A program made the translations under genes and the position numbers. From Mesodorylaimus sp. YZB2_4 (lineage: Eukaryota > Nematoda > Enoplea > Dorylaimida > Dorylaimidae), in NCBI GenBank assembly GCA_030248295.1, contig JASANH010000239.1:682001-746000 (forward strand): a stretch of 64,000 nt of DNA, written 5' to 3'. Below the pieces are notes generated by a model. It was not told the origin of the DNA. It saw nothing but the letters and a program-made list of their open reading frames with translations, and did no database searches. Of the stretch, positions 4,001 through 45,681 are shown piece after piece; the first letter of the stretch is position 1, and every line of letters begins with the position of its first letter.

Positions 4001-7000
4001 AATCGTTTTTCCGTTTCATTTTCTTCCAATTCAGTTTGTATTTCCACATTTTTACATGATTTTTCCATTTTTCTACTCAAAATTTCATTTCTCGTTTTTT
4101 CTTCAGCTAAAATTTGCGCCAAGCGTTGATATTCTTGATGATAACGAATATTTTCTTGATGTTTTTCATTCAATAAAATAATAAGTTGCTGCTTTTCGTT
4201 TAATAATAAATCCAAATTTCCTGAAATTTCTCCAATTTTTTTCTCCATTTCATTTTTATAAATTTTATATTCGTTATCGTTTTTTTCAAATTTTTCCAAT
4301 TCCGATCGTAAATTCGACTCGAAATTTTTCCGTTCATTTTCCATTTCATTATTTAATCGTTTTAATTCCGATCGATCACGATCACGTATCGAATCGAAAT
4401 CGCTGATTTTTCGATTTTGAATTTGAGTTTCTTCCAACAATTTTTCTTTTTCTATTTTCAAATTTTCAAATTCTTGATGAATTTGGGTCGATTTCGAGCA
4501 GAATTCATCATTTTCTCTTTTCAGTTTTTGATATTCCTCACTGATTCGCGCCAATTCGCCTCTCAATCGATTATTTTCTTCAATTATCGATTGATCATCG
4601 ATTAAATTCGATCGTAATTGATTTAATTCCAATTTCAAATTTTCTTCCACATTTTGATTCAATTTTATTCGTTCTTTCATCATTTCCAATTCGTTTTCCA
4701 ATTTTTCTTTAGTCTCTTCAAGAATTATTTTCTCATTTTTCATATTTTCCATTTCTTTTTTCAACATGCTCAAATTATGTTCATTTTCTGTTTGTTTTTC
4801 ATCCATTTTTTCCGTTTCTTCTTTTTCTCGATGTAATTCGACGGTTAATTTATTCACTTCATTTTTCAATTCTCCTTCTCGTTTTCGATTATCGGCCAAT
4901 TGTAATTCTAATCCTTTCAATTCTGTGAAAACTTGTTGAACAAGTTCTTCTCTTTCTTTTACATCTCGTCGTTTTTGTTCCAATTCTTGATTTAATTTTT
5001 CGCATTCTTCAGTTTTTTCATTCAAAGCTTCTAAAATTTCTTTCAATTGAGGTTCTAAATTTTGTTTTTCACCAGTCGATATTTTCGATTTTGTCGATCG
5101 ATCGATATCGATCAAAGCCGATTGATCTTTTTTTTGTCGATTATCGATCGTTTCATCACCCCAATCATTCCATCCCCCATCATTTCCACTTTCGTCCCAT
5201 TCTTCCTTTTCTTCTTTCTCTTTTTCCTGTTCCGATTTATGATCGTCTTGGAAAACTGTTGGATTTTCGGTAGTTTGACCCAAGATTTGTGCTTTCAAGC
5301 GTCTGTTTTGCTCTTGCAACTGCTCGATTGTTCGACGTTGTTTTTCGACCACACTCTTCATTGCTGTGAATGTATAATGAAAAAAATGGATCACTCTCAT
5401 TTCTTGACATTTTTTCTCGACTTTAGTATATAGGCATCTCGATCTCACATTCCCCCCCCCCCCCCCCGGATGCCACAAGGTGACCTGAGCGATAGACCTT
5501 GGCACTGTCCATGGCACAGGATTTGCTAGACCCCCCAATGGGACCTAGGTGAACTGATGGTGAGACCAATATTATGTCAGTCAAGACGATGTCAGGTCAG
5601 TAGTAAAGTCTTATCCTGGTCTCACTGTCACCTCCTTCCCCAGGATGCCACAAGGTGACCTGAGCCATAGACCTAACCACTGTCTATGGCACAGGATTCG
5701 CCAGACCCCCTATGGGACCTGGGGGAACTGATGGTGGGGCCAATATCATGCCAGTCAAAACGATGTCAGGTCAGTAGTACAGTCTTATCCTGGTCCCACC
5801 ATCACTCCCCGCCCCAGGTACCACAGGGTGGGGGCCTGGTGAGTACCCGCCTGATCACCAACTATGGCCCAGGTCAGCCTGGCGAGTGACGATGAGACCA
5901 AGATAAGACTTTACTACTGACTTGACATGATATTGGTCTCACTATCACTCCCCTGAGGGGGATAGTGGTGCCCTGAGCCATCATAAGCTGACCATGGATG
6001 GTGGCCAGGCGGGTACTCTCAGACTGCCCACCTCCCTCCAGGTGACACCTTGAGACCCAATATGCATTTCCTTGGCTTGACATGGCTGGCTGCATGCAGC
6101 TTGGACACCAACCCGTGGGCTCTGATTGACCCAAACTTTTACCCCCCCACGCTGATGGATTTCGAAAAAAGTATTTCCACCGTCATCAAAAACTTGAATT
6201 CCCGCGACTACAGTAGCTTGACACTTTATAACAATTAGATACCAGTGAGCAAATCTGTTTAATTTATCGATCCAAATCGATAATTGAGAAAACTAGACAT
6301 GAATGAGGTATATGTTAAAAATGTTTTTGTCATGTTTTCATTGTCGATAAACTCGATCTTTTAATTATGTGCACCAAAAAATCGCGGACACATCTGCTTG
6401 ATCCTTGATATACTGTCGTAAACAGCAAAAGCGGGAATTTCAAATTCGGAGGTCTACTGACGATTTTCGAACCTTTGGTAAAAAGAGGCTCGAATTACAG
6501 CTTTTCATAAAAAAAAGCAGCCAACTTTGGACATTGCCAGAAAGCAAATCACCACCTGCCCCTTAGCGTCTGGATGGATTCGTATATTTAGTCTCACTAT
6601 GAATGTGCGCCCCAGTTCGCACCCACTTACCCTAATCATGATCCCATAGCAGCAGTTTCATTTGATTCGAGGACCAGCAAGCTACTATGCCCTGATGCAG
6701 GAAATAATCGGGAGATTTCAAGGGTTTTTTGGACAAGTTAGAGAGAACTTCGTGCCTGTAGACTACCCAACACCCAAACTGTCGTTATCTGCTAACTAGC
6801 GGAAGGGTTTCATGGCCTGCCGCAAAGTGACAATCTGGGCTTGATATTGCGAATAGCTGCAAAACGTTCCTTGTCGCCATAGAAAGTATTTTGGAAAATC
6901 TCAGCGGAAAATGGCCTGGTGGGTCAGCCATGGTTCCTATTAACACAGGGGCCAAACATCCGATAGACATTTGACCCCTCAATTGGAGACAGGCATTATT

Positions 7001-13000: not shown

Positions 13001-15012
13001 TCGACAGCTACATAGAAACTGCGGGTGATCCAAAATTTGGAACTTTGACATGCCATAGAGCCTCTGCTTAGCTTTCCCAGATTTTGGCTCCAAAATTCCT
13101 ATTTTCCCAGGTTTTCTCACATTTTTCAAACGCTTTTAAGATTTTCTGACTTTCAAGTTCTCCACATTAATTAATAGCTACAGGTAAAACGCAGGTGCAG
13201 TCAGTCCTAGCACGCGTAGGAGGGAGCGAGAAAAGAAACCCCGACTGGAGCAGGTAAGTCTTGCGATTATGCCCATGGCTACCTAATAGATCTAAAGCAG
13301 CTGGTGCGTCTAGAAAAAAGGTTATCGATTGACATGTCAGGTAGGTGCAGGGGGCGTAGCCACGCCCCCTCCACACCAACCAGCCTCTTGTAGCCCGACC
13401 GCGCAATCGTTCGCGGGATGAGGTTTTTGTCGAAGCTAGCAAAAGAATGATTACATATTCGGATTGAGCTCAAAAAGTTATGCGCACGATCTTCTTAACT
13501 CCAAAAAAGGGCACACTTCTAACACTATTCAAATGTTCCCGCTAAACTGATCTGCAAGTACAAACTAGGTAAAGTCTGCTCTGAGCGGGAATACGACAAA
13601 TCAGTTTTGCTTGTACTCGATACTAGCTGGTTCCATGCGCAATCTAATCTCATGGGTCTACAGAGCGTGGTACACCCTTATATTTGCGAAATGACGCGGC
13701 ACAAGTTTATGGCTACAGTATACAGAATTAGTGGCAAGGCCATCTGCGGGAAAGCCACATGACAGATACTCAATTGAAACGCCTCAACATGACGCAGCAA
13801 AAAGCTCTATTCTCTCTAGACGGCGCAGACAGCATTGTCAGGCTATCTTTCTCGACAGCAGGTTTCTTCTCAGTTTGTTTTCCGCTTCCCCTCTCGAAAC
13901 CACCAGCCGGCGACTTATTATCTGCCCTGGTGTAAAGTATAGGGTCAGCGAGGACTCAGAGTGAGGATGTGGTGCAGTGTGAACTATATTCGTAGGTAAC
14001 AGGTACACATACAGATCAGGGCTTGTTAAAATGAATGCTTTAGAGTACAGCCGGCCTGCCGTTGCAATTACCGCTCAGAGTAGACTTTACCTAGTTTGTA
14101 CTTGCAGATCAGTTTAGCGGGAACACTTGAATAGTGTTAAAAGCGTGTTTTTTTGAGTAAAGAAGATTTTGCGTGCACAATTTTGAGCTTTTTCCAAAAA
14201 TGCAATAATTTTTTTGATAGCTTCGATAAAAACCTCATCCCGCGAACGATTGCGCGGTCGGGCTACAAGAGGCTGGTTGGTGTGGAGGGGGCGTACTACC
14301 TGACATGTCAATCGATTACCTTTTTTCTATAAGAACCAGCCTGCTTTAAATCTATTGGGTAGACATGATTATGCCTGGCTGAAACCTCAACCCGAGGCGT
14401 TGACGTCTCCCAGCGAGGAGAGAGTATCGATTGCTTTCTCCCACTCGCCATAGCCAACCAGGCATGAGGGTTGCACAAAAGATCCACTATTTGGAATCTC
14501 ACCGCGCAATATAGCCAGTTAGTTTTCCACAGATTTTGGTCCGAAAATTCCTACTATCCCGCGTTTTCGAAGCTCATGTAAAATTTCTAACTTTCCAGGT
14601 TCTACGAAATGACCAACAGCCACGTAGAAAAGGCTGGGTGATCAAAATCTTGGAACCTCCAGATGCTGCCGCTCAGTTTTTCCCGATGTTGGCTCCAAAA
14701 TTCCTATTTTCTACGAGTTTTCCGAGCACATCTCCGATTCCTCGAGTTTTTCACGTTTTCCAGGCCTTTTATGACCCCTACAGCTCTGATGCGAGTCTAA
14801 CTCCATCGTCGCTTCCCCGACCTCCTCACCTCAGAATTCCTCGTAGCCAGCAATTGTTCCAATTCGGCAACACGTTTTTTAGCGACAGTCAATTCGGAAA
14901 CAGGATCGGCCACTTCTTGCGTCGATTCGTTTAAGACCTCGGTTGTAAATTCGGTCAATTGATTACGAATCGACGATAATGTCGACAAACCGGCGCCCAA
15001 AAATCGACTCAT
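1017..15012 (-). CDS. TRIP11: Golgi microtubule-associated protein 210 (TRIP11/GMAP-210) ortholog, 3' end beyond window
   Basis: Long coiled-coil golgin that tethers vesicles at the cis-Golgi. Twelve exons join in frame: 15012-14830, 11694-11584, 11521-11297, 11145-11089, 11032-10864, 10813-10371, 8591-7343, 5363-3596, 2337-2174, 1732-1629, 1252-1153 and 1098-1017 (4,655 nt, 1,551 codons). Residues 1-25 (MSRFLGAGLSTLSSIRNQL) form an amphipathic, Ser/Gly-rich helix like the ALPS curvature sensor of GMAP-210. Exon 3 holds VKQLKAECQHWKQL, matching the family's early conserved block. Exon 8 ends with RLRGHLVQIEEAYTQEA and exon 9 has ALANLQSVLQHLQQ, both close to the vertebrate C-terminal coiled coil. 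The last visible residues (KIDK) sit where the GRAB (Arf-binding) domain should begin, so only that domain and the tail are off the left edge. Acidic Trp-rich patches (GWNDWGDE, exon 8; DGWGAGADADWG, exon 5) interrupt the coils. The first base of exon 11 (1252 or 1249) is ambiguous by one codon. Confidence 0.9.
2590..3560. repeat. Cluster of TTGGCGGGAAAATTT motifs in golgin intron 8
   Basis: Intron 8 (2338-3595) is AT-rich and carries about ten copies of a short motif, TTTGGCGGGAAAATTT or close variants, each followed by a short C-rich run. Clear examples start near 2599, 2684, 2844, 2971, 3118, 3421 and 3543. Spacing is irregular (60-300 bp). The core matches the canonical E2F/DP site TTTGGCGGGAAA, but the flanking AAATTCAAA repeats suggest a degenerate satellite as the origin. 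Short ORFs here are chance. Confidence 0.6.
5440..6065. repeat. Tandem repeat of about 175 bp plus an inverted partial copy
   Basis: Lies in golgin intron 7 (5364-7342), next to a run of 17 C at about 5451. Two direct copies begin GGATGCCACAAGGTGACCTG at 5468 and 5642. A partial third copy follows near 5811, and an inverted partial copy lies at 5888-6000, containing the reverse complement of AAAGTCTTATCCTGGTCTCA. No coding signal. Confidence 0.7.
6165..6465. repeat. Dispersed MITE-like repeat, copy 1
   Basis: About 300 bp starting with TTGAATTCCCGCGACT and ending with AGCGGGAATTTCAAATTC, so its two ends are inverted relative to each other. The internal segment ATCTGCTTGATCCTTGAT is shared with a second copy at 61430-61740. 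It sits in the golgin's intron 7. The remainder of the intron up to 7342 shows only the hairpin at 7085-7180. Confidence 0.65.
7085..7180. repeat. 31-bp inverted repeat (hairpin) in golgin intron 7
   Basis: The left arm 7085-7115 (GGCCTGTTGGTCAGCCATAG...) is the reverse complement of the right arm 7150-7180 with one mismatch, with a loop of 34 nt. Short secondary palindromes around TGATCA flank it. It could be a small foldback element or a transcribed hairpin. Confidence 0.75.
8592..10370. other. Golgin intron 6 with degenerate repeats
   Basis: Non-coding. Around 8850-8990 and 9305-9385 there are recurring variants of GAGTTCGCTTATTATCACAC, suggesting an old short tandem repeat. At 9960-9995 lies a fragment of the GGGTTGGGTTGAGTTTTG family also seen at 42190-42310 and 47770-47915. 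The stretch 10150-10330 is A/T-rich with AAAACT runs. No gene is seen. Confidence 0.45.
12545..12800. repeat. Imperfect direct repeat of about 128 bp, two copies
   Basis: Within golgin intron 1 (11695-14829). CCAACTTTCGCGATTGCGCA near 12626 recurs as CCAACTTTCGCTGTTGCGCA near 12757. Both are followed by AAAGCTCAA and a block ending in CATTGCTG, and both are preceded by a block with CATG and CAGGT. No gene is seen in this part of the intron. Confidence 0.55.
12885..13150. repeat. Interspersed repeat family A copy
   Basis: Carries the family signature: GCGGGTGATCCAAAATTTGG, then CCAGATTTTGGCTCCAAAAT, then TTTTCCCAGGTTTTC. Related to the copies at 1-1010, 14520-14800 and 41150-41260. Confidence 0.6.
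13270..14365. mobile_element. Foldback/MITE-like element with inverted arms of about 300 bp
   Basis: The left arm (about 13270-13590) and right arm (about 14071-14365) are reverse complements over roughly 300 bp with scattered differences and a small palindromic insertion (GGGGGCGTAGCCACGCCCCC) in the left arm. Shared landmarks are ATCGATTGACATGTCAGGTA, CCGCGCAATCGTTCGCGGGA and CTGATCTGCAAGTACAAACT. The roughly 480-bp centre has no transposase. This is a non-autonomous inverted-repeat element inside golgin intron 1. The mobilising family is unknown. Confidence 0.8.
14386..14475. repeat. Interspersed repeat family B copy (ATCGATT core)
   Basis: Contains CAGCGAGGAGAGAGTATCGA, CTCCCACTCGCCATAG, then ACCAGGCATGAGGGTTGCAC. 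Related copies are at 19028-19110 and 34244-34340, with partial matches at 1880-1925, 26145-26215 and 59097-59240. The core is palindromic around ATCGAT. Confidence 0.6.
14520..14800. repeat. Interspersed repeat family A copy beside golgin exon 1
   Basis: Contains GGCTGGGTGATCAAAATCTT and GTTGGCTCCAAAATTCCTAT, the same order as at 12885-13150. It ends about 30 bp from the exon 1 donor at 14829. Confidence 0.55.
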
Positions 15013-18600: not shown

Positions 18601-21044
18601 ACACTGCTATAGGTCCTATCCTGCATCACTGGAGTTGGTCATAAACTGTATGGCATGTACTAGCTGACTCCAGGCTGGGATAGAAAACGTTTTTAACGAG
18701 TGGCTTGTCTTGTCGAAGGGACCTTCGGGCCAGTTGCTGATGGTCGCACTCTCCTCATGCGCGAGTGTGTCACTGTAGGGGGGATGCGGGTGTGTGGACT
18801 CGAGTGGTAGGTGGATGCAGGGTGGTAGTTTTGATGTGTCATGAAATCCAGTTTTCCAGTTTGCTTGCGTCATTATCGTATGTTTGCGGATGAGATCATG
18901 GTGTTGAGAAATATGCGTGGGATGTGGTTTGGGAGTTCCCCCTGGTGTTACGTAATCGAACATAAATATTGGGGGGAATCACGGCTGAAGAACTAGTGGC
19001 GATTTTTCGGCCCCCTGACATGTGAAGGTTGATGTTTCAGCCAGGGAAGAGTATCGATTACTCTCTCCCGCTCGCCATGGCCTACCAGGCACGAGGGTTA
19101 CACTTGTAGATGACCTGTCCTGAGCACAGATCTAAGCTAAGTGGTGTCACGATCAGTAGCAAGTAGAAGTCTTGAGGGGATTGGATTTAGGAGTGGAGAA
19201 CTGTCAAGCCAGATTTAATGTTCTCTTTGAATGATGTTGTGTTCATTGTGTACAGTTGTGGGTGACATTAAGCTGACGGGTTCCTGCCTCGCCTAAAGAA
19301 GGCAAGCAGATACACTTCCTTTTTCACAGATAAACACACCTCACCTACTGCACTTGAATTGATAGGAAGTGATTCAGTGAATGAACTTGGTATCAGAGGC
19401 AGGGTACTCTCCCAAGAACATTTGTGGCATGCTCGTACGTTCCTGCCGTTAGGCTAGCCACAACATTAGTCGCTGACGTGTTTATTTGAAGGTGATCTGC
19501 TGATGGATAGGTACACTCTGCAGGGTAGTCTGTGGAAAAGTCAGCTGGTAGCCAAGATTAAGCCTAAGCCAGGGTTCGATCCCCGCCAGTGCCGACTCTT
19601 TGACATGTCAGTTTTGGGGATTCAACTAGGATAACACCATTGAATAACAATTCTAGACCTGAACCGTGATCAGGCTGTGTTTGGAGTTTGGGCACCAGTG
19701 CAGGGTCTAGGTTGAATCAGGCAGCTGGGAAGGCGTGGTTAATGAAGTGTATTTGATTTTGATAACATTGACTAATGGCCGTATTTTAAGGAGAAAGCGA
19801 CAAAATGGCGGAAGAAGAATGAAGAAATTGATGGATTGACTACGAATGGCGTCTTGATTTTGCATCCGACTTCAGTGAATGGAGAAGTGGATGGTAAGTT
19901 CTGCTTGAGGCTGGGTGGTGAGGGCAGAGTTGGCAACTTGTCAGGCCTGGGCTCAACTGCTAGCAGACAGGGAGAGCGGTGGCGAGTACCCTTCATCCCT
20001 CGTGGGTGTCCTGTCGCGGAGCTTGGGCTGGGTATGACTTGACTGGCGACATCCTGAATGGAGACTGGCCAATGGCGAGCCCTCTACCTCCAGACCTAGA
20101 AAGGGACCTGGGTCCTATGTTGGAGCGATCAAGACTGTTGAATGGTGTGATTACTTAGGGCCAGCGAATATGTTTCTATGGCGAGAGGTGTCTGTGGATG
20201 GGGACATCTATACGTTGCGTGAAACGCGTTCATCGACGAAACGGGGCGATCGAGTGGACTCGGCTACGAATTGTCTGCAAGATGGAACTTTGATCGATTT
20301 GTGCGGCGCGACGCTGCTGTGGCGATCGGCTGCCGGCCTTCAGACGTCTCCAGTAAGTGGGCAGTGTAACCAAGCTTGACAGAAACTCCAGTGGAGCAGG
20401 CTGATGTTTCGCAGCCAGAGGAGATGGACCACGCGCCAGGGTCACGGCAGGAAGGGCAAGAGTGGGTTTGGTTTCAGAGTCGTCACGAATTGGAGAGGCG
20501 TTTAGATGAGCTGAATGCTGGTCGGCCGCAGTGTCCAGTCAGTTTGAATACGTTGATCATACCAAAACGGAAGGACTCGTTGTGCCGAGAGCGACAGCCT
20601 TACGTGTATCTGAACTGTGGGCACGTGCAAGGCTACCACGATTGGGGGCATGCCAAGGACAAGCAGAAACACAAGTGTCCTATTTGCCACGTGGAGGTGA
20701 GGGAGTGGTCCTGGGTCAGTGTTCAGTGGACACGATTGTGTGTTTCAGTCTGGAGAAATACTTCAGTTGTGCATGGGCGTCGAGCCAGCCTTCCATTTGG
20801 ACTCGGATGCTTTAGAGTACGCCTTTAATCCGTGCGGGCACGTGGCGTCTGCCAAGACTGTTAGGTAAGTGGGGGTGGAAGTGTTGTGGATGTGAGGATG
20901 GGAGTGGACTGTTTCAGGTACTGGTCCCGAATTCCATTACCTCATGGCACCAATAGTTTCAATCCAGTGTGTCCATTCTGCACGACTATATTGTCCATTG
21001 ACAAACCATACGTCCGATTGATTTTTCAAGATCACTGCTTTTGA
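15666..21044 (+). CDS. PELI: Pellino E3 ubiquitin-protein ligase
   Basis: Scaffold and RING-like E3 ligase of Toll/IL-1 receptor signalling, cytoplasmic, acting on IRAK-type kinases in animals where it has been studied. Eight exons join in frame: 15666-15727, 16387-16663, 18305-18565, 19791-19893, 20159-20352, 20478-20696, 20749-20864 and 20918-21044, giving 452 aa, near the usual 420-450. The start fits the family N-terminus (KYGELVVLGYNG). The FHA-like substrate-binding domain follows: SVTYTLNRTQAVVVEY, DMFQIGRSSEPQIDF, STISRYACRI, ARVYAAGFDASKNIFLG. The C-terminal RING-like half has all expected Cys/His pairs: RPQCPV, YLNCGHVQGYHDWG, KCPIC, NPCGHVASAKT and PVCPFC, ending LIFQDHCF. The intron at 20697-20748 is only 52 bp. 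The exon 6 acceptor (20477) was chosen because it restores the spacing to RPQCPV; in-frame alternatives lie slightly upstream. Confidence 0.95.
16725..16870 (+). mobile_element. tRNA-derived SINE copy
   Basis: In Pellino intron 2. The RNA polymerase III A box-like GTGGCCTAGTGGGTTAAGGC is followed about 45 bp later by the B box GGTTCGACTCC, then a non-tRNA tail ending TGGATAAAGTATGACAT. The anticodon stem is not intact, so this is a SINE rather than a tRNA gene. Sister copies are at 23266-23392 and 29133-29268, with a truncated one at 61790-61885. Confidence 0.8.
16871..18304. other. Pellino intron 2, no recognised element
   Basis: Apart from the SINE, the intron between exons 2 and 3 shows no repeat family I recognise and no coding signal. 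Open frames at 17571-17822 and nearby are short and lack splice or homology support. Confidence 0.5.
19028..19110 (+). repeat. Interspersed repeat family B copy
   Basis: In Pellino intron 3. It carries CAGGGAAGAGTATCGATTAC, then TCTCTCCCGCTCGCCATGG and ACCAGGCACGAGGGTTACAC. Matches the copies at 14386-14475 and 34244-34340. A SINE B-box relic, CAGGGTTCGATCCCCGCC, lies further on at 19572-19589. The rest of intron 3 is unremarkable. Confidence 0.6.
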
Positions 21045-24054: not shown

Positions 24055-26097
24055 ATGGAGCACAGTTTTAAAAAATTACATAAACTGTCAGCTTTTGCTG
24101 CATATAATGGATTGGAAAAGCGTCAGGTAAGTAAGAAAATGTCAACACGATAAAAACACAAATTTTGTGGAGTTTTCATGTCGTATTTTACGATCCTCTT
24201 GAAAAAATCACATGTACAGTTGTGGCGTTTTTAGTCACAAAATCTGCGTTCTGCGCAAAGTGATTTTTCTGTTGCATTCAAATTTTCGAAACAAGTTGTA
24301 TTTTTTGTTGTCAACGTTTAAACGTCTTTTTTAGACACAAATAGAAACACGAGCGATCGAGACGAATGACGGCAAGAAAAACAAGAAAAGGAAGCCGAAA
24401 AGAGTTTCTTTCGTGAATACTCCAATCTTTCGTCCCGAATACGATGAAGGACAGGATGTCGATTGGACAATTTTGGATGATGACGATGAAGAAATACCTC
24501 AACTAATTCCGATTACAATTGACGAGGAGGCATCGAAAAGAAAAAAACAAAAAGTATGCCAATTCTGTCTTTTTTTCCCACTCTTTGAAATGACAGTTGA
24601 CTAAAAATGACTTCCTGGAAGTCACCTTGGGTTGTTTTTCTGTTAGCCGTGCGGGTTTTCGCAACCTTTTGATTCTAAGTTTTTCCTCGGAGCGCACCTA
24701 GCTTATGAAATTGTGATGATGTTCTCGTTCTTTATGAATATCCACTCGGACAAAAACAAAGGCGGGAGCACGGCTAACCAAAAAACAGGATCGTTCTGAG
24801 ACAACGTTGACAAACATTGGCTTTTCAGACCTCGCATTTCGACCATGATCGAGAGGCTGTCACAAATGGGCTGAGCGGGCAGCGGAATAAGCGATCGAAT
24901 AGACACAAATCGCAGGCTTCCAGTGCCAGCTCGACTGAAACAGGGGTGAGTTATTTTCATTAGATTTTGAAAATTCCGAGTAGATTTCTACTTTTTACTC
25001 GAGATCAGTTTTCGTCTTTTTTGAAGTCAAATCACACATTTTTGTTTTGCTCAGTGCACTAGTACTGCATAAAATTTGTGTGAACATTAGGATTTTCTGA
25101 TCAGTGACTTTTCCTGATTTCATTCATTTTTTCATATTTATTTGCTCTTTTAGGAACGAAAAGGTGTTTGGAAATTTCTAAACACTCTGACCTACTCTAG
25201 CAGTGCCAACGATGCTCGGGCTGCATTCGCTTGGTTGATCGCTCCGATGACAATTGAGCATTTTTTTGAGTAAGTTAACATTTCTAGGTTTTCAAGGCAC
25301 TAAATTAGTTTTACATTTTTTCAAGGCAATATTGGGAGAAAAATCCCATGTTTCTTCGACGTGATGATCCCGAATATTATAATGGCCTGTTCAGTTCCGA
25401 TGAGCTGGACTCGATTTTGAAAGAGGTCAGGTCGGTTGTAGCTTTGTGAATCTTGCTGTATCTGAAACCATATTTTACTCATGAGTGAGTATAGTAATAG
25501 GATACCTGAGAGTCGGATGACAAACTGTGTGGTATTAAGGACCAGGCGCTTATTTTGGACAGAGATAGGCTTGGTGTGTAAAAGTTGGTTTCAGATATCG
25601 CTAACCTCAGGGTTGTGCAAAGGTGTTTCAATGTCTGTGTAAGAGTGGTATGGGTCTTGGGGGGGGGGGAGACACTGGATGCATATCAACGCTGCGCTGA
25701 GGTAATTGGCTGAAACTTAATTTTACCCGCCATAATACCAATTGTATGACACTGAATTAAAAATATAGTTGTGACTCCTATCCTGTTCGCAGCAGAGTTA
25801 GTGCCAGTTTCATGTCAGCGTGTAAAATGTGGTATGAGGTAGGCATTTTAATGTGCCGCACATGTGTCTTGCGCAGCTTGTATGCATGGCCAGCCTCTCT
25901 TCGTAGTTGCTCGTGCCAGCATCGACCGATCCGACCCTCCCTCCTCCTCTCCCTTCAAAATTTTTTTTTTTTAAATTTTTTTTTTTTTTCCTTTTTCTCC
26001 AAAAAAAATTTTTTTTATTTTTTTTTTCCTTAATTTTTATTTTATTATTATTATATTAAAAAAAATAATAAAAAAAAATTTTTTTTAAAAAAAAATA

Positions 26098-26134
<37 letters not shown>

Positions 26135-29100
26135 TGCTCGTGCTCGTCTGAGAGAATAATCGATTTCCCGAAATCGATTATTCTCTCAGGCGATTATTCT
26201 CTCTCGGGCTCAGGTTTGTCAACCCACCTGACATGTGCGGCCTTTCCCCAAACTGAGAGTCTCTATGGCCTTGAGGTGCTGTTAACGGCGAACTCAATAC
26301 GCGGACCACGTGGGATGTCTGTCCTAGGCCGACCCAAGGATTTCCCTCGTGCAAAATTCCAATAGGACTGGTTCTCGTTTGCAGCACGACATTCAGTACA
26401 CGGTCAATTTGGACATTACAAAGTACGAGAATGGTCAGAGGCAAACCTTGAATCCGACTGGGCGCGCCTACGCGTCGACAGTTTGGGACTTCTATAAGGT
26501 AGGAATGTGGTTATTGGTGCAAACAGCTGATGCCTGAGAATCGGCTAGTTTTACCCTGTAGGAACTAGTAATTTACTGATGCCATTTTTTGGTCCGGAAA
26601 GAGAGTGTAAATGACTCAGATTTACAACAACTAGTGATCAAACATAACATTTTGGCATTGGGAAATACAAAAATGCTTTGGTTACTTTTCAATAGTCTTA
26701 TTATCCTCGTGTAACTTTTCGCATGTTTTTAGCATAATTACACACGAATGGAGGAAAACTGCATTCAAAATGACAAATCAAAAAAACAGGCATAAGAAAA
26801 CATCAACTTGATTAAATTTTGCACAATCACTGTTTAAAATTTCTTTGATAATCCAGTTTTCTTAAATCTATACTCCAACAAAACTTGCGGTGCGCACACA
26901 TTTTCAAGAGCACGCGCGGTAAAAGTTGGGATTGGGATCAGATTTAGAACGGTTATGGGTGGAGAGAATTTTTGGAGTGAACAATTTATTGTGTAAGTGT
27001 TTTTCAGGATGGTTGTTCTATTCGTATGCTTAATCCGCAAACTTATTCAGAAGCCGTGTGGAAATTGGCATCGACGTTGCAAGAGTTTTTTGGAACTTTT
27101 GTTGGAGCGAATGTGTATGTTATTTGCTATTTCGGTGAGTTTGGTGACGGTTTGATTGATTCCAGGTACTTGACACCAGCCAATACTCAAGGATTCGCTC
27201 CTCATTACGACGATATCGAGGCATTTGTTGTACAGTTGGAAGGGGTCAAAACTTGGCGAGTTTATAAACCGTTGAATGACGAAGAGACATTGCCCCGATT
27301 TTCGAGTCGTAAGTCCACGATTTCTGCTCACAAAACAGTTTCCACCGTCGCAACAGGAGGACTTGAAGAGACCGGTGTCCCTGAGGGCAACTCCTACTGT
27401 AGTTATAAAAGTCTTGGGACTGTAGCTGTGGTTGGAACATCAACCGGACGGGTTAGCGAGTCCTAGCCAGGGGTTAATCGATCTCCCTGCCGCCAAGAAT
27501 GCTGATTATACGTTTTTTTGTTGTGCGGAATCACTAAGTCGCAGTTTTCTGAGGCGTGGCATACAATGTAATTTTTCTAGGTAATTACAAACCCGGCGAA
27601 GTGGGCGATCCTATGCTGATTGTGGATCTGAATCCGGGCGATGTGATGTACTTTCCTAGAGGGTTTATTCACGAGGTTAGTGAAGTTTTATTGTTTGGAC
27701 CCAGGTCCGACACAAGGCTATAGGCTTATCGGTATCAGTCGGTCCTGGATTCGCGCAGCAGTGGGTGTAGGTGTAGGCGCAGCATGGTGTAAAATATAGT
27801 TTCGGATGATGTGTTGTTTGCGCGGCAGTGTGTAAAATATGGTTTCAGAAAAATCATCCAGATATATAAAACCTGCATTTCACTTGAGATTTAAAGTCGT
27901 GAACTAGCTCACGCAAGAGTCGCTTAATAAACTAGCACCAGAACTGGACCTACATCAAGCTACGCTGAGATGCCGTCTGAAACTTAATATTACTTGCATG
28001 TGCGACATATCATCTCAGTCTGAGTTTCACTCTATCTGTTCAATTATATATTTTCTGTTTTATTGTCGGGTGTCACCATCTAGTCTCCTCATGTAATCCT
28101 GGTTTAACTACAATAGTATCTGGATGCCACAAGCATCTACACGAGGTAAAATATGGTTTCAGCCAAGGAGCAGCCAGATAAATAAAGTAGGATTTCAATA
28201 AGGATTTTGAAACTTGAACAAGCTCTACAGTAGATTCTGAATAAAACCGGTACCTGAACTGAATCTGCTTAAAGCTGCGCTGAGATGTCACCTGAAACTT
28301 GATATTACTCACATGTGCGACGTGCCATCTGAATCTATATTTTACCCTAGCCATTCCGTTTTTTTTCATATAATTATGATTTTAACTCAGTAGTATCAGG
28401 TGGCAACAGAAGTGCACATGGTGTAAAATATGGTTTCAGATTGAATATTTTCGAGTGCAAAAAAACAGCAGTGGGTTTTTATGTAACAAAGGGATACTTG
28501 TTACAGGCAGTGGCGTCGAAGGATCAGCATTCTTTGCATATAACCATCAGTGCAACACAGCGGAATACATTTGGCGAATTCCTACAAATCGTAAGTGGAC
28601 TTTTAGTTTTTGGTGTTGCTTTGTGCAGTAATTCTGTGTTGGAGTTTCAGTTGATGGCGCATGCAGTGGAGACGGCCATGTTGGAGAATGTCGAGTATAG
28701 ACGTGCACTGCCTTTGAATTACATGGAAATCGCTGGTACGGTTAATATGGACCAGGTGAGAGCCGAAAACTTTTTGGAGATTTTTGGCCTGAAATTTTGG
28801 TATTTGGTTTAAAGTCGAAGTTGAAATAGCATGAAAAAGAATCTGAAAATTTGCATTTCTGAATCTTACTCCAAAAAAATCTTGAGCGAATTTTTTGCAG
28901 AGGTAGGCTTAAATATCTGGGCGGTATCTGTCCCTGGGAATTTATGCAGAATGGTTTATTTTAGAAAAAGAAAGGGCGAAAAGACTTTTTGGCGACAGTG
29001 AAGAAGTTGATGGGTGGTTTGTTGGAGTATGGGACGAGTCTGATTGACGGGGCGGTGGATCAAATGGTCAAGGAGAAGTTCATGCAAGACGCATTGCCTC

Positions 29101-30910
29101 CTTGCCTCACTGACGGTGAGTGGCTGGTGAGTACCTCGGGCGTGGCCTAGCCGGTCAAGGCGTCCGTCTCTTGGGGGGGGGGGGGGAGGGTTCGACTCCC
29201 ACCTGGGAAAAATGATTGCCGATTTATGTTTTGTACAGTGTTTGGCTTTGAATAAAGTATGACATCGTGTAATGGGGCACCTTCTTCCAAGTCTGTTTTC
29301 CATAAAAGATAGCATATATTTGGTTTTTAGAGGAGAAACAAGGCTGCATTGTCGGTCGACGCAAAGATGCACCGGCTGTGTTCAAAGACGATACGAAGGT
29401 TCGGTTGTTAAGAAAGCATTGTTTGAGGTGAGTGCAGTGTTCCTGGGCAAGTTGGATTGTCCCCTATGACTGCTGGTGGCTATAGGCAAAACGGGTTGTA
29501 CCCACTAAAAGTTGCACCAAGCGCTGAAGCGCGCTAGAAAGTGTCTGGTCGTTGTAAAATAGCATAGCATAGCAAAACGTTTTTTAAAAGTTAGAGTGTC
29601 TTCAGCAGCTCAAAATCTTGCTGTTTGTGTCCACTAAGCTGGGCGAAGTTCAGGATCAGAGCATCAACCAGGTGCTGTCCTGACTAATTGTGTCAGTGAA
29701 AGCGAGTCTGAGTAACCCATTCTATTTCAGGCTGGTTATGGAGAACGAGTCGGATATTTCAGTTTATTACAACACCGAGAATAGTCGGGTATATCGAGAA
29801 AAGCCATTGCAGAAATTCGCAATCGATGGCGATGTAAGTTATTCGGTGTCTTCGTCTGATACTTTTCAATACAGTTCGGCTGAAGTATTAGTGGAGGGAG
29901 GACTGGTGGAGGTTTCGTACCTGTCCGAAAGACCCAAAGGAGCCAACCATGTCTTCTGATCTAGTCCATAGTTGAAACATGTACATTTTGCATCTTATTG
30001 CGGTTTAGTTGGCCCCGGGTATCGATTATTTGGTGGAAATGTACCCCAAATACGTGACAGTCAAAGACCTGCCTTTGGATACGACCACTGAGAAAGTAAG
30101 TCAGGCGAGGAGGATTCGTGGGGACTGGCTGGTACCAGCAACACACTCGCACTCACAGCTGGATGTTAGCGTGGTGGTGGAGTTTATGTCAAAACCTGTA
30201 CAATGCTTCCAAAGCTTCCAGCAGCCTTGGTTATTTCAAGCTGCACATAAAAAGGCGGTGTGTGCAAAATGTGGTATATTCTTTGTTGAAAAGCAGTCTT
30301 AAAACTCACAAATTATCGAATTAACTGCTGCTGAAAAGTCAGTTTGTTCAGAATTTTATGCTCTTTTGATTTAGCAATTTAATTGTTCAGATAATTTAAT
30401 TTTATTTGTGGAGAAGTGATACTTCGAATTCACTGCAGATCGGACGATGGTCGGACATAAGCAGCAAACATTTTTTAGAATGTAATTTATTTTAATAATT
30501 TTGAAATTTGAAGCAGTATCAAAGAATTAGCAATAATATAGTAAAAATTCCGCTTTTTGAACCTGAAATGTATCTTTCACTTCCCACTCCCCCAATCAGC
30601 TGCTTGAAAAAACAAGACCGCTAAAGCTTGGTGTAGATTTTTGGTGGAAACCCATAGTCGGCTTGTAGAATTTAATTAGTCGCTATAATAATTTTGCTAG
30701 GTTTCTTCCGTCCTGAAACAGCCTTTAAAAATCGTTGCACTTCGCCCGCACTAATTTTCAAGAATGGTGTCCATATAAGCCCCGTATTTGTAACTGGCTC
30801 AAAAGTGCTCCTTAATTGACTACTGTGTTGAAAAATGCGATCTTTTTTTCTAGATTCGGATCTGCCAGCTGTTGTACGAGAAATGTCTGTTAATGACAGA
30901 GTCGGTATAA
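24055..30910 (+). CDS. RIOX1: JmjC ribosomal/histone oxygenase NO66 (RIOX1) ortholog
   Basis: Fe(II)/2-oxoglutarate-dependent oxygenase of the NO66/MINA53 family, which hydroxylates a ribosomal-protein histidine in the nucleolus and has been reported as a histone demethylase. Sixteen exons join in frame to 588 aa: 24055-24126, 24335-24553, 24829-24945, 25154-25269, 25326-25425, 26385-26498, 27008-27114, 27166-27308, 27581-27675, 28507-28590, 28651-28755, 28965-29115, 29331-29427, 29731-29833, 30009-30095 and 30854-30910. The N-terminus (1-136) is Lys-rich and acidic, suited to nuclear targeting. JmjC motifs: [33 protein letters not shown] with iron ligands His295 and Asp297, [13 protein letters not shown], and [10 protein letters not shown] with His360. 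The dimerisation/winged-helix part follows ([42 protein letters not shown]). The donor after exon 5 (GAG|GTCAGG) is weak but required by phase. Intron 7 is 51 bp. Confidence 0.92.
25958..26133. repeat. Poly-T/poly-A low-complexity tract
   Basis: About 175 bp almost entirely of A and T homopolymer runs in NO66 intron 5. It could form a long T-to-A hairpin and is the part of the window most likely to be misassembled or of uncertain length. A poly-G run sits earlier in the same intron near 25660. Confidence 0.9.
26145..26215. repeat. Near-perfect palindrome around ATCGATT and family B fragment
   Basis: GAGAGAATAATCGATTTC is followed directly by GAAATCGATTATTCTCTC, then a third CGATTATTCTCTC. 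This is a hairpin with 18-bp arms and a loop of about 2 nt, related to the palindromic core of repeat family B. Confidence 0.85.
27740..28445. repeat. Two imperfect tandem copies of a repeat of about 310 bp in NO66 intron 9
   Basis: Copies at about 27780-28090 and 28110-28445 share, in order, GGTAAAATATGGTTTCAG-type starts, a CCAGATAWATAAA block, GCTGAGATG, TGAAACTT.ATATTACT and CATGTGCGAC. The TAAAATATGGTTTCAG boundary motif recurs across the window. Related GAAACTTAATTTTACCCGCC occurs at 25710. Confidence 0.65.
29133..29268 (+). mobile_element. tRNA-derived SINE copy with poly-G insert
   Basis: In NO66 intron 12. A-box-like GCGTGGCCTAGCCGGTCAAGG and B box GGTTCGACTCCCACCTGGG are separated by CCGTCTCTT and a run of 13 G. 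The tail has ATGATTGCCGATTTATG and ends GGCTTTGAATAAAGTATGAC, as in the copy at 16725-16870. Confidence 0.8.
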
Positions 30911-31460: not shown

Positions 31461-34400
31461 TTACTCCATAGGAATCCATTCTGGTAAAAAGAAATCTTCT
31501 TTCCTAAGCATAGTGGCCAATGGACTGTTGGTTCTGGGCCAGCCATTGTAGTAGACAGTGTCACCACCGGCCAAGTAGGCAGCCCACCAGGAGAAGGTGC
31601 CCTGACTCATGATGGTGTGGTTGCACATGGCCAAAACGCACATGTCCACTTCTCGAGTGTGGCTACTCGCAATTTGTACATCGGAGAAATGTCCTATGTT
31701 TTGCTTGGTCCAATAATAATCATCCGTGCAAGCAATAAAAAGTACGTGTTTGAATTTGTCTCTAAAATATTGCATGGCTTTGAGAAAATAGCCTTTTGTG
31801 GCCACTGTGTGCCCGTGCTGCTGATTGCGAGTATTCCAAGTCATATCCAGTCCGCGACGTACGTGGATACCGATCAATATCGGTCGATTATCGATCGATC
31901 GGTTGGTCACTGATCGCCATCTGATCAATGCCTTGTCTATACGTGTCCTAGCTTCGGATTCGATTTGTGGCAGGAATGTGAACTGGGCTTTAATGGCCTG
32001 TCGGAGTTGCATGTCTGCAGTATGGAAGTACTTGTAGGATTGGAAGTAGCCATAGAGGGCGAAATGGGTCCCGTTCTCCAAATGTTCCGTTTCTTCATAG
32101 TATCGACAGCATTGAGCATAAAAAACTCGTTTCCAATTTTTCAAGAAATACATGGATAATCGATAAGTGGCAACGATGGCATTGTCGAGGCGGAAGGCGC
32201 GTCTGATCAGCATGCCTTCGGGGATGACCAGGCTGGCGTTGTATCGCCAGGCCATGCCGAACAGGGACGCGTATTGGAACATGAGATTGCCCTGGCCAGG
32301 ACTCATGAAGAACTTCGTGGTCAGGTAGCGCGGGCTGGAGGCGCGTGTGGAGTTGTGGTCCAGGTGCCAGGGCTCGCTGACAATGGGCACTGTGGGTACT
32401 GACCAGGGTGGCGAGGAGGGAATGTCGTCGCCTGAAACACAAGGTTTGGCTTGTTGGCACTTGCAGTGACACTGTGCATGTGAACTTGTGATGTAGGTAG
32501 GAAGTGCATCAGACTGTACACTGCATTCATGTCAGCATCGCACAGCACATGCATTGCTGATCACACCAGGGTGACAAGGAGGCAATGTCGTCGCATGGAA
32601 CACAAGGTTTGGCTTGTTGGCACTTGCAGTGACCCTGTGCATGTGAACTGTGAGTAGGTAGTGCATCAGACTGTACACTGCACTGATGTCAGCATCCCAC
32701 AGCGCATGCATTGCTGATCACACCAGGGTGACAAGGAGGCAATGTCGTCGCATGGAACACAAGGTTTGGCTTGTTGGCACTTGCAGTGACCCTGTGCATG
32801 TGAACTGTGAGTAGGTAGTGCATCAGACTGTACACTGCACTGATGTCAGCATCCCACAGCGCATGCATTGCTGATCACACCAGGGTGACAAGGAGGGAAT
32901 GTCGTCGCCTGAAACACAAGGTTTGGCTTGTTGGCACTTGCAGTGACCCTGTGCATGTGAACTGTGAGTAGGTAGTGCATCAGACTGTACACTGCACTGA
33001 TGTCAGCATCCCACAGCGCATGCATTGCTGATCACACCAGGGTGACAAGGAGGGAATGTCGTCGCCTGAAACACAAGGTTTGGCTTGTTGGCACTTGCAG
33101 TGACCCTGTGCATGTGAACTGTGAGTAGGTAGTGCATCAGACTGTACACTGCACTGATGTCAGCATCCCACAGCACATGCATTGCTGATCACACCAGGGT
33201 GACAAGAAGGGAATGTCGCCGCCTGAAACACAAGGTTTGGCTTGTTGGCACTTGCAGTGACACTGTGCATGTGAACTTGTGATGTAGGTAGGAAGTGCAT
33301 CAGACTGTACACTGCATTCATGTCAGCATCGCACAGCACATGCATTGCTGATCACACCAGGGTGACAAGGAGGCAATGTCGTCGCATGGAACACAAGGTT
33401 TGGCTTGTTGGCACTTGCAGTGACACTGTGTATGTGAACTTGTGATGTAGGTAGGTAGTGCATCAGACTGTACACTGCACTGATGTCAGCATCCCACAGC
33501 GCATGCATTGCTGATCACACCAGGGTTACAAGGAGGGAATGTCGTCGCCTGAAACACAAGGTTTGGCTTGTTGGCACTTGCAGTGACCCTGTGCATGTGA
33601 ACTTGTGATGTAGGTAGGTAGTGCATCAGACTGTACACTGCACTGATGTCAGCATCCCACAGCGCATGCATTGCTGATCACACCAGGGTTACAAGGAGGG
33701 AATGTCGTCGCCTGAAACACAAGGTTTGGCTTGTTGGCACTTGCAGTGACCATGTGCATGTGAACTTGTGATGTAGGTAGGTAGTGCATCAGACTGTACA
33801 CTGCACTCATGTCAGCATCGCACAGCACATGCATTGCTGATCACACCATGGTGACAAGGAGGCAATGTCGTCGCATGGAACACAAGGTTTGGCTTGTTGG
33901 CACTGGCAGTGTTACTGTGCATGTGAACTTGTACTGTAAGTAGGTACTGCATCAAACTGCACAGCGCTGATGTCTGCATGTGATCCATGCCACTGTGCCA
34001 GTAAAGAGGGACTCGCCGCAGACGACAGAGACGCTTAGATGCCCGTCAGCACAACAGTGTCCTGAAGAAGTGCCACCGACGCCTCGTCTCCTCGCGAATT
34101 CCTCAATTTTACAAAATAAATGACGTGTGCATTGTATGACAGCTGTTCCAAACGAACATGGCAGGCTTAGGAGGAAGTGTGGGCGACCAAAGTCTGTGGG
34201 ACCAAAGCTTGGACTGGAACATGGCAAGTCTCGCGACTATACCTACCGCTGAAACATCAACCTGATGGACTGACCTTTCCCAGCCAGAGAAGATCGATTA
34301 CTCTCTCCCACTTTCCATACCAGCCAGACGCCAGGGTTACACACGATGCATCCTACTGCATGTGATCACACACTCAGCACAGCACATATAGTGCAGCACA

Positions 34401-34869
34401 TGCATTCACCACCTCACACTCTGGCGTGCATAACACCATGCATGTTTTATGACCATGGCAAGGAATGGCACTATGTCCATGCATAGCACCCTGATACCTT
34501 TGGCCACCTTTGGCCGTCGCACAATACTGTTGTTGCTCTACGGTACGCTCCCCCAAACCTTTCAGCTACAGCATCATTTAAAACCATGTGCCGCATCCAT
34601 CAAAAAAACCACACTCACCTCCAGGCATGGTCAAAACTTTGGTGAATGTGTAAAATTCCACACCATGTTTCTCATTTTCGTCATCCAGATTCGGACGAAA
34701 TTGAATCGATTGGAAAATGACTACCGCGCAGACGAGACACAGCAAAAGCACCATGGCTATACACCCTGCAAGAACGAGCAGCACTCCAGCATTCGATTGA
34801 CTAAAAACACTTCGTCATACCTTTTAGACACCGCACAACTAACCGCCTTCTAACTGGCACCATTTTCAT
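31461..34869 (-). CDS. GT11 alpha-1,2-fucosyltransferase, type II Golgi membrane protein
   Basis: Transfers fucose from GDP-fucose to a galactose in glycan chains, in the Golgi lumen. Exons 34869-34821, 34765-34619 and 32431-31461 join in frame to 388 aa. Exon 1 gives a short basic cytosolic tail (MKMVPVRRRLVVRCLKG) and exon 2 a signal-anchor (IAMVLLLCLVCAVVIF), the expected type II layout. The catalytic part has the GT11 motifs GQGNLMFQYASLFGMA near its start, GIHVRRGLDM (donor-binding, family consensus HVRRGD), and a CNHTIMSQGTFSWWAAYL block near the C-terminus. Several N-glycosylation sequons are present (NAS, NGT, NRS, NHT). Asp at HVRRGD is displaced by one residue (HVRRGLD). The family is strongly expanded in nematodes. 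Intron 2 (34618-32432) contains a tandem array that duplicates the exon 3 boundary. Confidence 0.9.
32421..33965. repeat. Tandem array, about ten 156-163 bp units derived from the fucosyltransferase exon 3 boundary
   Basis: Units begin at the segment AATGTCGTCGCCTGAAACAC (or ...GCATGGAACAC), at about 32421, 32584, 32740, 32897, 33053, 33210, 33375, 33539, 33702 and 33865. The first is the real exon 3 boundary on the minus strand (TTTCAG|GCGACGACATT). The others copy 20-30 nt of exon 3 plus the acceptor. Five copies keep TTTCAG (32897, 33053, 33210, 33539, 33702) and four have lost AG through the CATGGAAC variant. Unit length alternates between 156 and 163 through a 7-bp TGTGATG-type indel. 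Repeated 61-codon minus-strand frames inside are by-products. Confidence 0.9.
34230..34345 (+). repeat. Interspersed repeat family B copy in fucosyltransferase intron 2
   Basis: GCTGAAACATCAACCTGATG, then CCAGAGAAGATCGATTACTC and CCAGACGCCAGGGTTACACA. Same order as the copies at 14386-14475 and 19028-19110. The head GCTGAAACATCAACC also occurs at 1892. Confidence 0.6.
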
Positions 34870-36544
34870 GTCACTGGGATGATGATGCTGTTCCAACTTC
34901 CAAAATCAGCAACTTCAGAATCAGTTCATTCGTTCAGTACAGTCAATTTTTCTGGACTGCAAGACCAGACAGTGGAAAAAGGAAAGTTTTGAGGCGCTAC
35001 TTTCACGGCCAGCCGACCGACGGCGATGGCTGAGCGGGCGTATATAGAATGCAATATTTTTCTGGGTATAGTGCATAAACGTCAAACTGCGCGCCATGAC
35101 ACAGTTTTGTTCCAGTCAAACGGCCATAGACGGCGGCTCATTCAAGGTTGGAGACGGCGAGGGTGAAGTTTTTGTTGATTTTCCGAAGGAAGGCGGTGGA
35201 TGGGATGCGAGGACTACTTAATAAGGTGGACTCAAGCAGCCCATCATTGCACTCGAAATTGAGGCACGGGGTTTTGTGGGACAGTTTGAGGCAGGAGGGC
35301 ACATCAGCTGCGCTTGACCACGGCCCAGTTTGGCCAGAAATGGATCAAACGCGCTTGATATGACCTAGTGGACAAATTCTTGTCATCTCTGGATTATTTT
35401 TTGCGTGTCAGAATTTGTACTGGCTTCCTTGATATGGAACTTACTTCCATGCCAACGCGTGAGGTCGACCATTGATCGTTTTTGTGTCTGCGAATACCAA
35501 AAAATCTGAAACTATATTTTACACACCCTGTGCACGAATGTGATATCTGAAACCATATTTCACACACCCTGTGTACGAATGTGATATCTGAAACCATATT
35601 TCACACACCCCGTGCACGAATGTGATATCGGAAACCATATTTTACACACCCTGTGCACGAATATGATATCTGAAACCATATTTCACACACCCCGTGCACG
35701 AATGTGATATCGGAAACCATATTTTACACACCCTGTGCACGAATATGATATCTGAAACCATATTTTACACACCCTGTGCGCGAATATGCTATCTGAAACC
35801 ATATGTTACACACCCCGTGCACAAATGTTATATCTGAAACCATATTTTACACACCCTGTGCACGAATGTGATATCTGAAACTGTATTTCACGCACCTCAC
35901 TTAGGACTGTGATATCCATGTTATTTGCATCATCAGACGGGAATGATCACATTGTTTGCGTAAAATTTAGCTTAGATAAGTCGTTCCATGCCGCACAGAT
36001 TTATAAGATTGGGAAGACTCCAAAGTTGTCATTACTGGTTTTCACCCGCGCTGAAAATATACGAAGGCCAACTCGAATATACGAAGGCCATCTAGGAAGT
36101 GTGGCTGCCGCGTTTTCAAAACAAACGCGCAAATCACCTGCAGTGATTTAATGCAGTCAGATTCATTCATGGATTCTCTCTGTTCAATGTGCCACTTTCG
36201 AGAAAAAAATCAGCGAAAAAATCTATTCTAGGTCAGAAACGGCTTCGTAGCTGTTGTGAACTGATTGTGGCAGCCCACAAAATGCGAGACATGCACTGTT
36301 TTGTTTTCTGGTCCATGTTGTTGTCCTATGAAATACCTGTTTCCTCGCACAGTTAGGTTATGAGAGTCCACATAAGCTGCAAGGCTTCATGTCTAGTGTT
36401 TTCTGCAGGTGGGCAAAAGAAAGCATGTTTTGTTGCATCATTTGTAAGAAGACTTTATTGTTACCAGCTGCTGAAATGTTCCCTAAATCTTACTGCAGGA
36501 CATCACTCTACCATGTTGTCCTCAAGAAGCACAAATCTTCTGAT
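34870..36544. other. Intergenic region with a 41-bp minisatellite
   Basis: Upstream of the fucosyltransferase and downstream of the proline-rich gene. Apart from the minisatellite at 35500-35890 I see no gene; open frames such as 35909-36151 lack splice or homology support. Confidence 0.5.
35500..35890. repeat. 41-bp minisatellite, about nine copies
   Basis: The unit runs GTGATATCTGAAACCATATT then TTACACACCCTGTGCACGAAT, with starts spaced 41 bp (35540, 35581, 35622, 35663, 35704 and so on). It embeds the dispersed motif ATCTGAAACCATATTTTACA that is found singly at many other places in the window. Confidence 0.9.
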
Positions 36545-44110: not shown

Positions 44111-45681
44111 CGGTACGCGACAACTAGGCGCCAGGTCAACTAGGCGATGGACAACTAGGCGACGTCAAGTAGGCGCCAGGTCAACTGGACGATGGTCAAC
44201 TAGGCGACTGCGCACTAGGCGCCAGGTAAACTAGGCGACGGACAACTAGGCGACATACCCGTTAACGTCATCTGGAAAGCGTTACATAGCGCTGTACACT
44301 ATCAATCACACAAATTTATCACGGACTACATACTTTATGTCATTAGCAAAAGCTGGACCTTCATTATTAACTAATCCATGTTGTAATTATGAGAGATACC
44401 TCGAAGGTATTCAATGACATTATCCCGATCGTACTGATTCACCTTGGTCAGGATTCGGCGATCGGCTTCCTCGTAACGTGGGCGCTTGCGCGGTGGATCA
44501 TGGCCAGCAACGAATGCTCGTACTCCACATCGTAAGCTTTCTGCACCTTGCGAAGTCCATCAATGAACTTCCAAATAGTTGGATGCGCAATGCCAGAACC
44601 AAATGCCAGCTGCAGTTTCTTGTGACTGGCCTCAGCGTAGTTGTTTGTGCGATCTTGGCCATCTATGGTGCGCTGGTTTACTGACCAAAGATCGATTGGG
44701 AAAAGCGGTGGAGCCCTCGTTCCATTGTTCCGTAATCGCCCAATGTATGTGTTCGTGAACCATTCCAGGATTGGCTCGAGCTCATCTGGCAGGTGATTTT
44801 CGAGTGCAGCCACAGCATGTAGAACATAAACCTGTGGTACAAACGCAACTGAAGTGACCATTTTAGCTTCTAGTGCGAATTGAGCGTCGGTGCTGTAGCG
44901 ACCCAAAACATGTATACCAGACAAGTGTTTGCGCAGATTTTGAACCAAGTGAAAGAAACAGCCTCGAATGTGCGCGTCAGGAAATTCCGCCCGTAGTGCT
45001 TGATGGATGGCGATTTCGTAGTCCACGTTGATGGTCTCTGGGCTCATTTGTGGCCACAGATCTTTGACCATTCGAAACACTTTGGCGTATGTCTCCGGCG
45101 TCTTGTTAGGCAACAAACAATAGAGCACGGGGATTTGAGCAGGCGTCTCCATAGTAGATCTGGCAATCTTCTTGGCATTCGTGCTGATACGCTGCATTTC
45201 AGCCCGAACTGCATCTCCAGTTGCCCGGCAGGTATGCTGAGCTTTTTCTGAGTGAACCCGTCGTGCACATTGGTCCAAATCCGCCCATTGCATCCATCGT
45301 TCTTCTTGTCGCATCGCCAAAACTGAATTTTTCCAGCTTTGTTCAGCTTGTCTTTGACGTACATACAGTATATCCACTGCGTGTATACTTCTCGTTATTG
45401 CGCTGCGTTTCAATCGGAAAATTGTCCATCTTGCTCAAAACTGTTTATTTAAACCAAGTGGCGCAGCCGCACAACAAACAACAAAAAGACTGCTGAACAT
45501 GGTAATAATATCGCCTACTCGTCCGTCGCCTAGTTAACCTGGCGCCTAGTGCGCAGTCGCCTAGTTGACCATCGCCTACTTGACCTGGCGCCTAGTGCGC
45601 AGTCGCCTAGTTGACCATCGCCTACTTGACCTGGCGCCTAGTGCGCAGTCGCCTAGTTGACCATCGCCTAGTTGACCGTGT
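44111..45681 (-). mobile_element. MULE-type DNA transposon with FLYWCH transposase, inserted in the retrotransposon
   Basis: Flanked by a 12-bp direct repeat, CCGGTTGTGACC, at 44099-44110 and 45682-45693, the target-site duplication (usual size 8-11 bp; a base or two may be chance). Both ends are long inverted regions built from tandem short units such as GGTCAACTAGGCGATGG and GCGCACTAGGCGCC: left 44111-44255, right about 45505-45681, the right end having three copies of a 56-bp subunit. The interior carries one decayed transposase gene. Confidence 0.9.
44448..45429 (-). pseudogene. FLYWCH/MULE transposase remnant
   Basis: From an ATG at 45429 a FLYWCH zinc finger is readable (KYTRSGYT, then FWRCDKKNDGCNGRIWT) but only by switching frame near 45369. 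A second frame switch near 45240 leads into the MULE part: PVLYCLLPNKTPETYAKVF, the acidic residue in NVDYEIA, and DAHIRGCFFHLVQNL. The segment expected to hold the first catalytic Asp (family DGTF motif) is missing between STMETPAQI and PVLYCLLP. At least two frameshifts and an internal deletion make it inactive. Confidence 0.85.

Follow-up and report, generated by a model that had tools for sequence, protein, structure and literature searches.

Minisatellites that lie across an exon-intron boundary and multiply its splice signal have been described in amphioxus in Adh3 and in the globin genes BflGb6 and BflGb9, and are called 'mirages', a term credited to Canestro et al. 2002 (PMC3087553). 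According to the sections of that report on which we draw, the unit sizes reported are 10–72, 150–160 and 157 bp, splice signals are present in many, not all, of the units and the cluster boundaries escape homogenisation. In BflGb6 the 3' end of an intron and the 5' part of exon 2 are duplicated in units of 150–160 bp, with 6 and 3 units in two haplotypes, and the extra AGs seem to leave regular splicing undisturbed, to judge by RT-PCR of this gene and by the data on Adh3. The same sections describe mirages in cephalochordates only (PMC3087553).

Duplicated acceptors have also been studied with constructs. The relevant parts of one such report state that, in vitro, both copies of a strong 3' splice site duplicated in a pre-mRNA can be occupied simultaneously and splicing is then poor, and that when the human beta-globin 3' splice site was duplicated exclusively the distal site, which we take to mean the downstream one, was used in vitro, very inefficiently (PMC5389562). 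Internal tandem repeats in human segmental duplications are described, in the portion of the study consulted, as altering gene structure, some of them at an exon-intron boundary (PMC2812944), and a minisatellite of C. elegans has been tied to alternative splicing through motif enrichment, which from the part of the paper drawn on here is a different matter (PMC4039745).

The DNA analysed here, a stretch of 64 kb referred to as the window, carries on its minus strand a predicted alpha-1,2-fucosyltransferase (GT11) gene whose three exons join into an open frame of 388 codons (Table 1). Residues 47–320 of the exon 3 translation matched the Pfam family Glyco_transf_11 (PF01531) with an E value of 4.3e-33 and 115.3 bits, above the gathering cut-off of 23.9 bits, which places the protein in GT11 and bears out the fucosyltransferase identity given in the preliminary description, its substrate specificity being a prediction from sequence. 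The gene appears to be maintained, because its frame is open over the three predicted exons and the GT11 match is present, and a hydrophobic stretch was seen by eye close to the N terminus of the protein. The exon 3 protein had no match among PDB chains at E values up to 1, and in viral contigs three stretches fitted a pattern derived from it and none was confirmed as a relative. The donor of intron 2 (last exon base 34619) agrees with the consensus at eight of nine positions and the exon frame reads across a phase 1 junction, both as claimed previously.

Tandem Repeats Finder (TRF) detected a single array at the end of intron 2 with a period of 163, 9.8 copies, 94% matches and a score of 2612, in which the anchor ACACAAGGTTTGG was found ten times at spacings of 163, 157, 157, 157, 157, 163, 163, 163 and 163. 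The preliminary description had counted about nine extra units of 156–163 bp; ten anchors and units of 157 or 163 bp agree with this, except that the outermost unit is partly homologous and the count is better given as about 9.8 units in all. Alignment of the ten units showed that each consists of the intron end, the acceptor and the first 29–30 nt of exon 3, at the upper end of the 20–30 nt proposed earlier. Five of the nine intronic copies have an intact TTTCAG/GC (the slash marks the splice junction) and four read TTCCAT/GC, the split that had been noted before, and with the tenth, intact copy at the predicted start of exon 3 the AG is kept in 6 of 10 units. Unit 10 shared 9 of 28 letters (32%) with the consensus of units 1–9 in alignment columns 1–30 and was 83–92% identical to it in the other three blocks. 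Further decayed units past unit 10 or on the exon side were not detected in the four stretches tried, where 50, 206, 237 and 192 of 300 shuffles matched or beat the score. Elsewhere in the window the array unit gave chance-level matches only (best E about 1, within-array matches filtered out), and thus there is no sign of a dispersed element. Rfam returned nothing at the gathering threshold in the window, and a 19-base unit pattern occurred in none of the viral contigs and once in the genome contigs, in a bacterial MAG contig, against about 1.9 occurrences expected by chance.

Table 1. Predicted exon structure of the GT11 gene and units of the tandem array (positions in the window).
Feature	Coordinates	Strand	Description
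Predicted exon 1, GT11 gene	34821–34869	minus	MKMVPVRRRLVVRCLK...; from reading frame and GT donor
Predicted exon 2, GT11 gene	34619–34765	minus	hydrophobic MVLLLCLVCAVVIF (by eye), stem; 3' donor GAG/GTGAGT
Predicted intron 2, GT11 gene	32432–34618	minus	2187 nt, of which the array makes up 1548 nt (71%)
Predicted exon 3, GT11 gene	31461–32431	minus	GT11 catalytic domain, 323 codons, then TAA
Tandem array	32402–33979	minus	lies across the predicted boundary of intron 2 and exon 3; about 9.8 units, 157/163 bp each; TRF and alignment
Unit 1	32402–32564	minus	predicted authentic acceptor TTTCAG/GC, exon start 32431
Unit 2	32565–32721	minus	dead acceptor TTCCAT/GC, 32594
Unit 3	32722–32878	minus	dead acceptor, 32751; identical to unit 2
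Unit 4	32879–33035	minus	intact decoy, 32908; differs from unit 3 solely at three acceptor-region columns
Unit 5	33036–33192	minus	intact decoy, 33065
Unit 6	33193–33355	minus	intact decoy, 33222; intronic part equals that of unit 1
Unit 7	33356–33518	minus	dead acceptor, 33385
Unit 8	33519–33681	minus	intact decoy, 33548
Unit 9	33682–33844	minus	intact decoy, 33711
Unit 10	33845–33979	minus	diverged edge unit; dead acceptor, 33874
Positions given for acceptors are those of the first exon-like base.

The overlap of the repeat with predicted exon 3, the minisatellite-like unit sizes, the retention of the splice signal in many but not all units and the homogenised interior with a diverged far edge all correspond to the published description of mirages, although the exon-side unit of the GT11 array is not diverged, unlike the cluster boundaries in amphioxus. 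Likened by that description (PMC3087553, in part), the array resembles BflGb6 in lying over the 3' end of an intron and the 5' part of an exon and in its unit size, and differs from it in belonging to a fucosyltransferase gene and in having about ten units rather than 6 and 3. By this analogy it may be read as a further, larger member of the amphioxus mirage kind. A minisatellite in the human interferon-induced gene 6-16 (G1P3) is said to give multiple splice donor sites, as Turri et al. reportedly found in 1995. The two cases are alike in that a minisatellite multiplies a splice site of a gene; those donor sites reportedly serve in a transcript, whereas the GT11 array multiplies candidate acceptors. 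With the repeats of human segmental duplications, as far as the portion consulted describes them, the array shares a minisatellite-type repeat that alters gene structure at a boundary, but those repeats may form novel introns (PMC2812944) and the predicted intron position in the GT11 gene is unchanged. It is possible that the first codons of GT11 exon 3 are repeat-derived. The engineered globin substrates likewise present duplicate acceptors on one pre-mRNA, although, in the parts of that report used here, these are artificial constructs with two sites in nuclear extract (PMC5389562) whereas the GT11 array is natural and has six live acceptors. Our literature search found no report of the GT11 array, which is not proof that it is unpublished.

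Comparison of the units indicated how the array has turned over. The dead and live types differ at the same three bases (columns 132, 135 and 147) in all four dead units, and these columns are the only differences between units 3 and 4, so that the two types are short haplotypes carried on different backbones. The dead copies had been described as mutated from the intact acceptor; TTCCAT/GC is indeed present in four copies, but the direction of change cannot be polarised here. A four-gamete test of units 1–9 agrees with this and gave incompatibilities that show recombination within units, which are recombinant mosaics. Unit 2 matches unit 3 at all 157 bp, and unit 10 at the far edge has diverged, most strongly in its outer part, as unit 1 next to the exon has not. 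Judged from the sequences, identical inner units with a diverged far edge are the usual minisatellite picture, in which turnover proceeds inside and the edge is left out. The interleaving of live and dead copies had been attributed to amplification from mixed higher-order units, an explanation that the data do not support, as the live/dead order of the ten units breaks into 6 runs where 5.8 would be expected (P 0.69 for this number or fewer, 0.60 for this number or more), a scan of unit differences showed no prominent lag (the means were 6.1 for a lag of 1 and 6.0 for a lag of 5) and recombination has occurred within the units.

Acceptor strength was scored with a matrix built from nine other acceptors in the window. 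The NO66-like gene supplied eight of them, placed by eye, and exon 2 of the GT11 gene the ninth, which makes a rough matrix in which two of the nine leave-one-out scores were negative. In intron 2 and the early part of exon 3 131 AGs were scored; the acceptor at 32431 reached 11.0 bits, as did each of its five copies, and the best of the other 125 reached 3.96. Of all 7098 AGs in the window, with the training sites counted, no more than 0.27% outscored 11.0 bits. This ranking, within the limits of a small matrix, supports the earlier placement of the exon 3 acceptor at 32431. No difference separates the six live acceptors between -39 and +3, or as far as +18 when unit 6 is set aside. Local sequence therefore cannot explain why the last acceptor should win, and the source of any preference for it has to be its position or the part of exon 3 beyond the repeat.

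Splicing to any copy other than the last would truncate the reading frame. From the copies at 33874 to 32594, in order, a stop is reached after 22, 7, 7, 22, 28, 28, 28, 28 and 22 codons. In every case this precedes the catalytic domain and falls within the limit of about 30 codons given in the preliminary description, and the predicted products of the five live decoys are 72 or 93 residues long, without the GT11 domain. The accompanying statement that distal copies keep phase is correct at the junction. Beyond it, a single live decoy out of five, the one at 32908 (477 nt upstream), is in the frame of exon 3, and even there a stop comes before exon 3. As the decoy stop sits in the predicted last exon, exon-junction-dependent decay would not necessarily follow. 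RNA structure that hides the decoys was also considered and rejected in a folding test of unit 4, which folded no better than shuffles (z 0.67; 149/200 as good), and of unit 1 with its exon flank, which folded weakly better (z -1.5; 13/200 as good).

We consider it likely, with a probability of roughly 0.8, that the array is a minisatellite of the mirage kind generated by tandem duplication and unequal exchange, and that the gene is spliced mainly to the last acceptor at 32431. A tandem duplication may once have covered the end of intron 2 together with the first 29–30 nt of exon 3 or, alternatively, a repeat at the intron end may have been incorporated into the exon. The copies would then have been multiplied and reshuffled through unequal exchange and gene conversion, each copy bringing its acceptor region with it and leaving an intron with five intact decoys and four copies without an AG. 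Most functional mRNA would result from joining 34619 to 32431, the sole acceptor leading into the whole of exon 3, and decoy use would yield a truncated protein without the catalytic domain. By analogy with the in vitro substrates, splicing could plausibly settle on the last acceptor, and could plausibly lose some efficiency; weighing against the last acceptor, proximity or a rule of first transcribed, first used would favour the decoys. We infer origin by duplication, splicing mainly to the last acceptor and no selected role for the array.

It is unlikely, in our estimation, that the array is instead wholly intronic, with exon 3 truly starting at 32398 (CAG/TA) or 32389 (ACAG/TG) and TTTCAG incidental to the repeat, or that it was so ancestrally, before the repeat came to provide a better acceptor. 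Both AGs lie just past the array edge (4 and 13 nt) and preserve the frame, a pyrimidine-rich stretch precedes 32398 by eye, and they stay in contention because a wholly intronic array would do away with the choice among identical sites. Their scores of -3.4 and -6.1 bits, however, compare poorly with the 11.0 bits of TTTCAG/GC, and 49% and 70% of the 7098 AGs, respectively, score higher, a comparison that rests on the same rough matrix of nine by-eye acceptors, two of them below zero when left out. It is extremely improbable that each unit is a cassette micro-exon made of the acceptor TTTCAG/, 28 nt and a weak donor CTG/GTGTGA. Such a donor-like site, matching 6 of 9 consensus positions, does follow the exon-like part, eight intronic units have theirs among the best 15 GTs listed, and exon 3 has CTG/GTCAGT (7/9) at the equivalent place, 32403; but 1057 of 7008 GTs in the window reach 6/9 or better and a single 28-nt exon would shift the frame. 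That the copy number was expanded or collapsed in assembly is very improbable: the identity of units 2 and 3 would fit such an artefact, but the other neighbouring pairs differ by at least one base, and several by many substitutions or a 6-bp indel, which disfavours a simple duplication error while leaving the exact copy number unproven.

The suggestion that the array serves as a splice-site trap or rheostat, in which identical acceptors compete or are co-occupied and lower the functional fucosyltransferase mRNA according to the number of live copies, rivals the preferred reading on function and not on kind, as a trap could hold for an array of the mirage type too. Its appeal is that the scores of the five decoys equal that of the predicted real acceptor, that use of the decoys would give the short products without the GT11 domain, and that in the parts of the globin study drawn on here a competitor oligonucleotide increased splicing several-fold (PMC5389562). 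We nonetheless regard it as improbable, given that amphioxus mirages with extra AGs appear, from the Adh3 data and globin RT-PCR in the sections cited, to be spliced regularly (PMC3087553), that the order of live and dead copies is not distinguishable from random, and that decoy transcripts need not undergo exon-junction-dependent decay. More specific, and distinctly improbable, is a copy-number-dependent rheostat in an animal outside the cephalochordates, in which co-occupation of the six identical acceptors would slow or divert intron 2 splicing and allele length would set fucosyltransferase output.

With six acceptors, about 40 nt of intron identity and one donor, the GT11 array is a natural counterpart of the hand-built test, and junction choice would tell position from downstream exon sequence and from random use, as well as the cost of the decoys. 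If the host lies outside the cephalochordates, boundary-spanning minisatellites would be more widespread than the cited sections describe (PMC3087553), and such a wider spread, if true, would bear on intron gain by tandem duplication.

The gene content of the window is that of animal DNA: apart from the GT11 gene it includes predicted GPCRs, fragments of an ASC channel and of a MULE transposase, and a JmjC gene most like NO66. One GPCR scored higher against Srsx, a nematode-named family (55.8 bits), than against 7tm_1 (34.7), and another was best in 7tm_1. An open frame at 20370–20825 had no match in PDB. In most of the predicted acceptors T predominates right up to the AG, somewhat like the C. 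elegans consensus UUUUCAG/R as given in the part of the source used (PMC4889670), and one predicted intron measures 51 nt. The Srsx match, the T-rich acceptors and the short intron are slight hints of a nematode or some other animal with small introns, and not of amphioxus.

Several other repeats were observed. Just upstream of the GT11 gene lies a 41-bp minisatellite (35504–35896, 9.6 copies), which looks like a dispersed repeat because similar sequence occurs at 27787–27849 (79% over 63 columns) and, by eye, at about 25455–25480. A dispersed short element, possibly a SINE or MITE, has copies at 34224–34343, in intron 2 outside the array, and at 14378–14477, 19038–19103, 1869–1913 and 59094–59212 (identity 68–84%), with a motif like GCTGAAACATCAACC and several copies that end near AGGGTTACAC by eye. 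ARAGORN called a tRNA-Pro (TGG) on the plus strand at 29135–29208, inside the predicted NO66-like gene; it contains about 14 consecutive G and is perhaps a pseudogene or a SINE head. On the minus strand, a coiled-coil exon has what by eye resembles its acceptor; a 174-bp repeat (5456–5830, 2.2 copies) stops some 90 nt upstream of this site and stays clear of that exon boundary. Finally, related minisatellites at 45511–45677 and 44119–44254, GTCGCCTAGTTGACC-like and its reverse complement by eye, flank the MULE transposase frame at 44448–45434 and are perhaps terminal repeats of that element.
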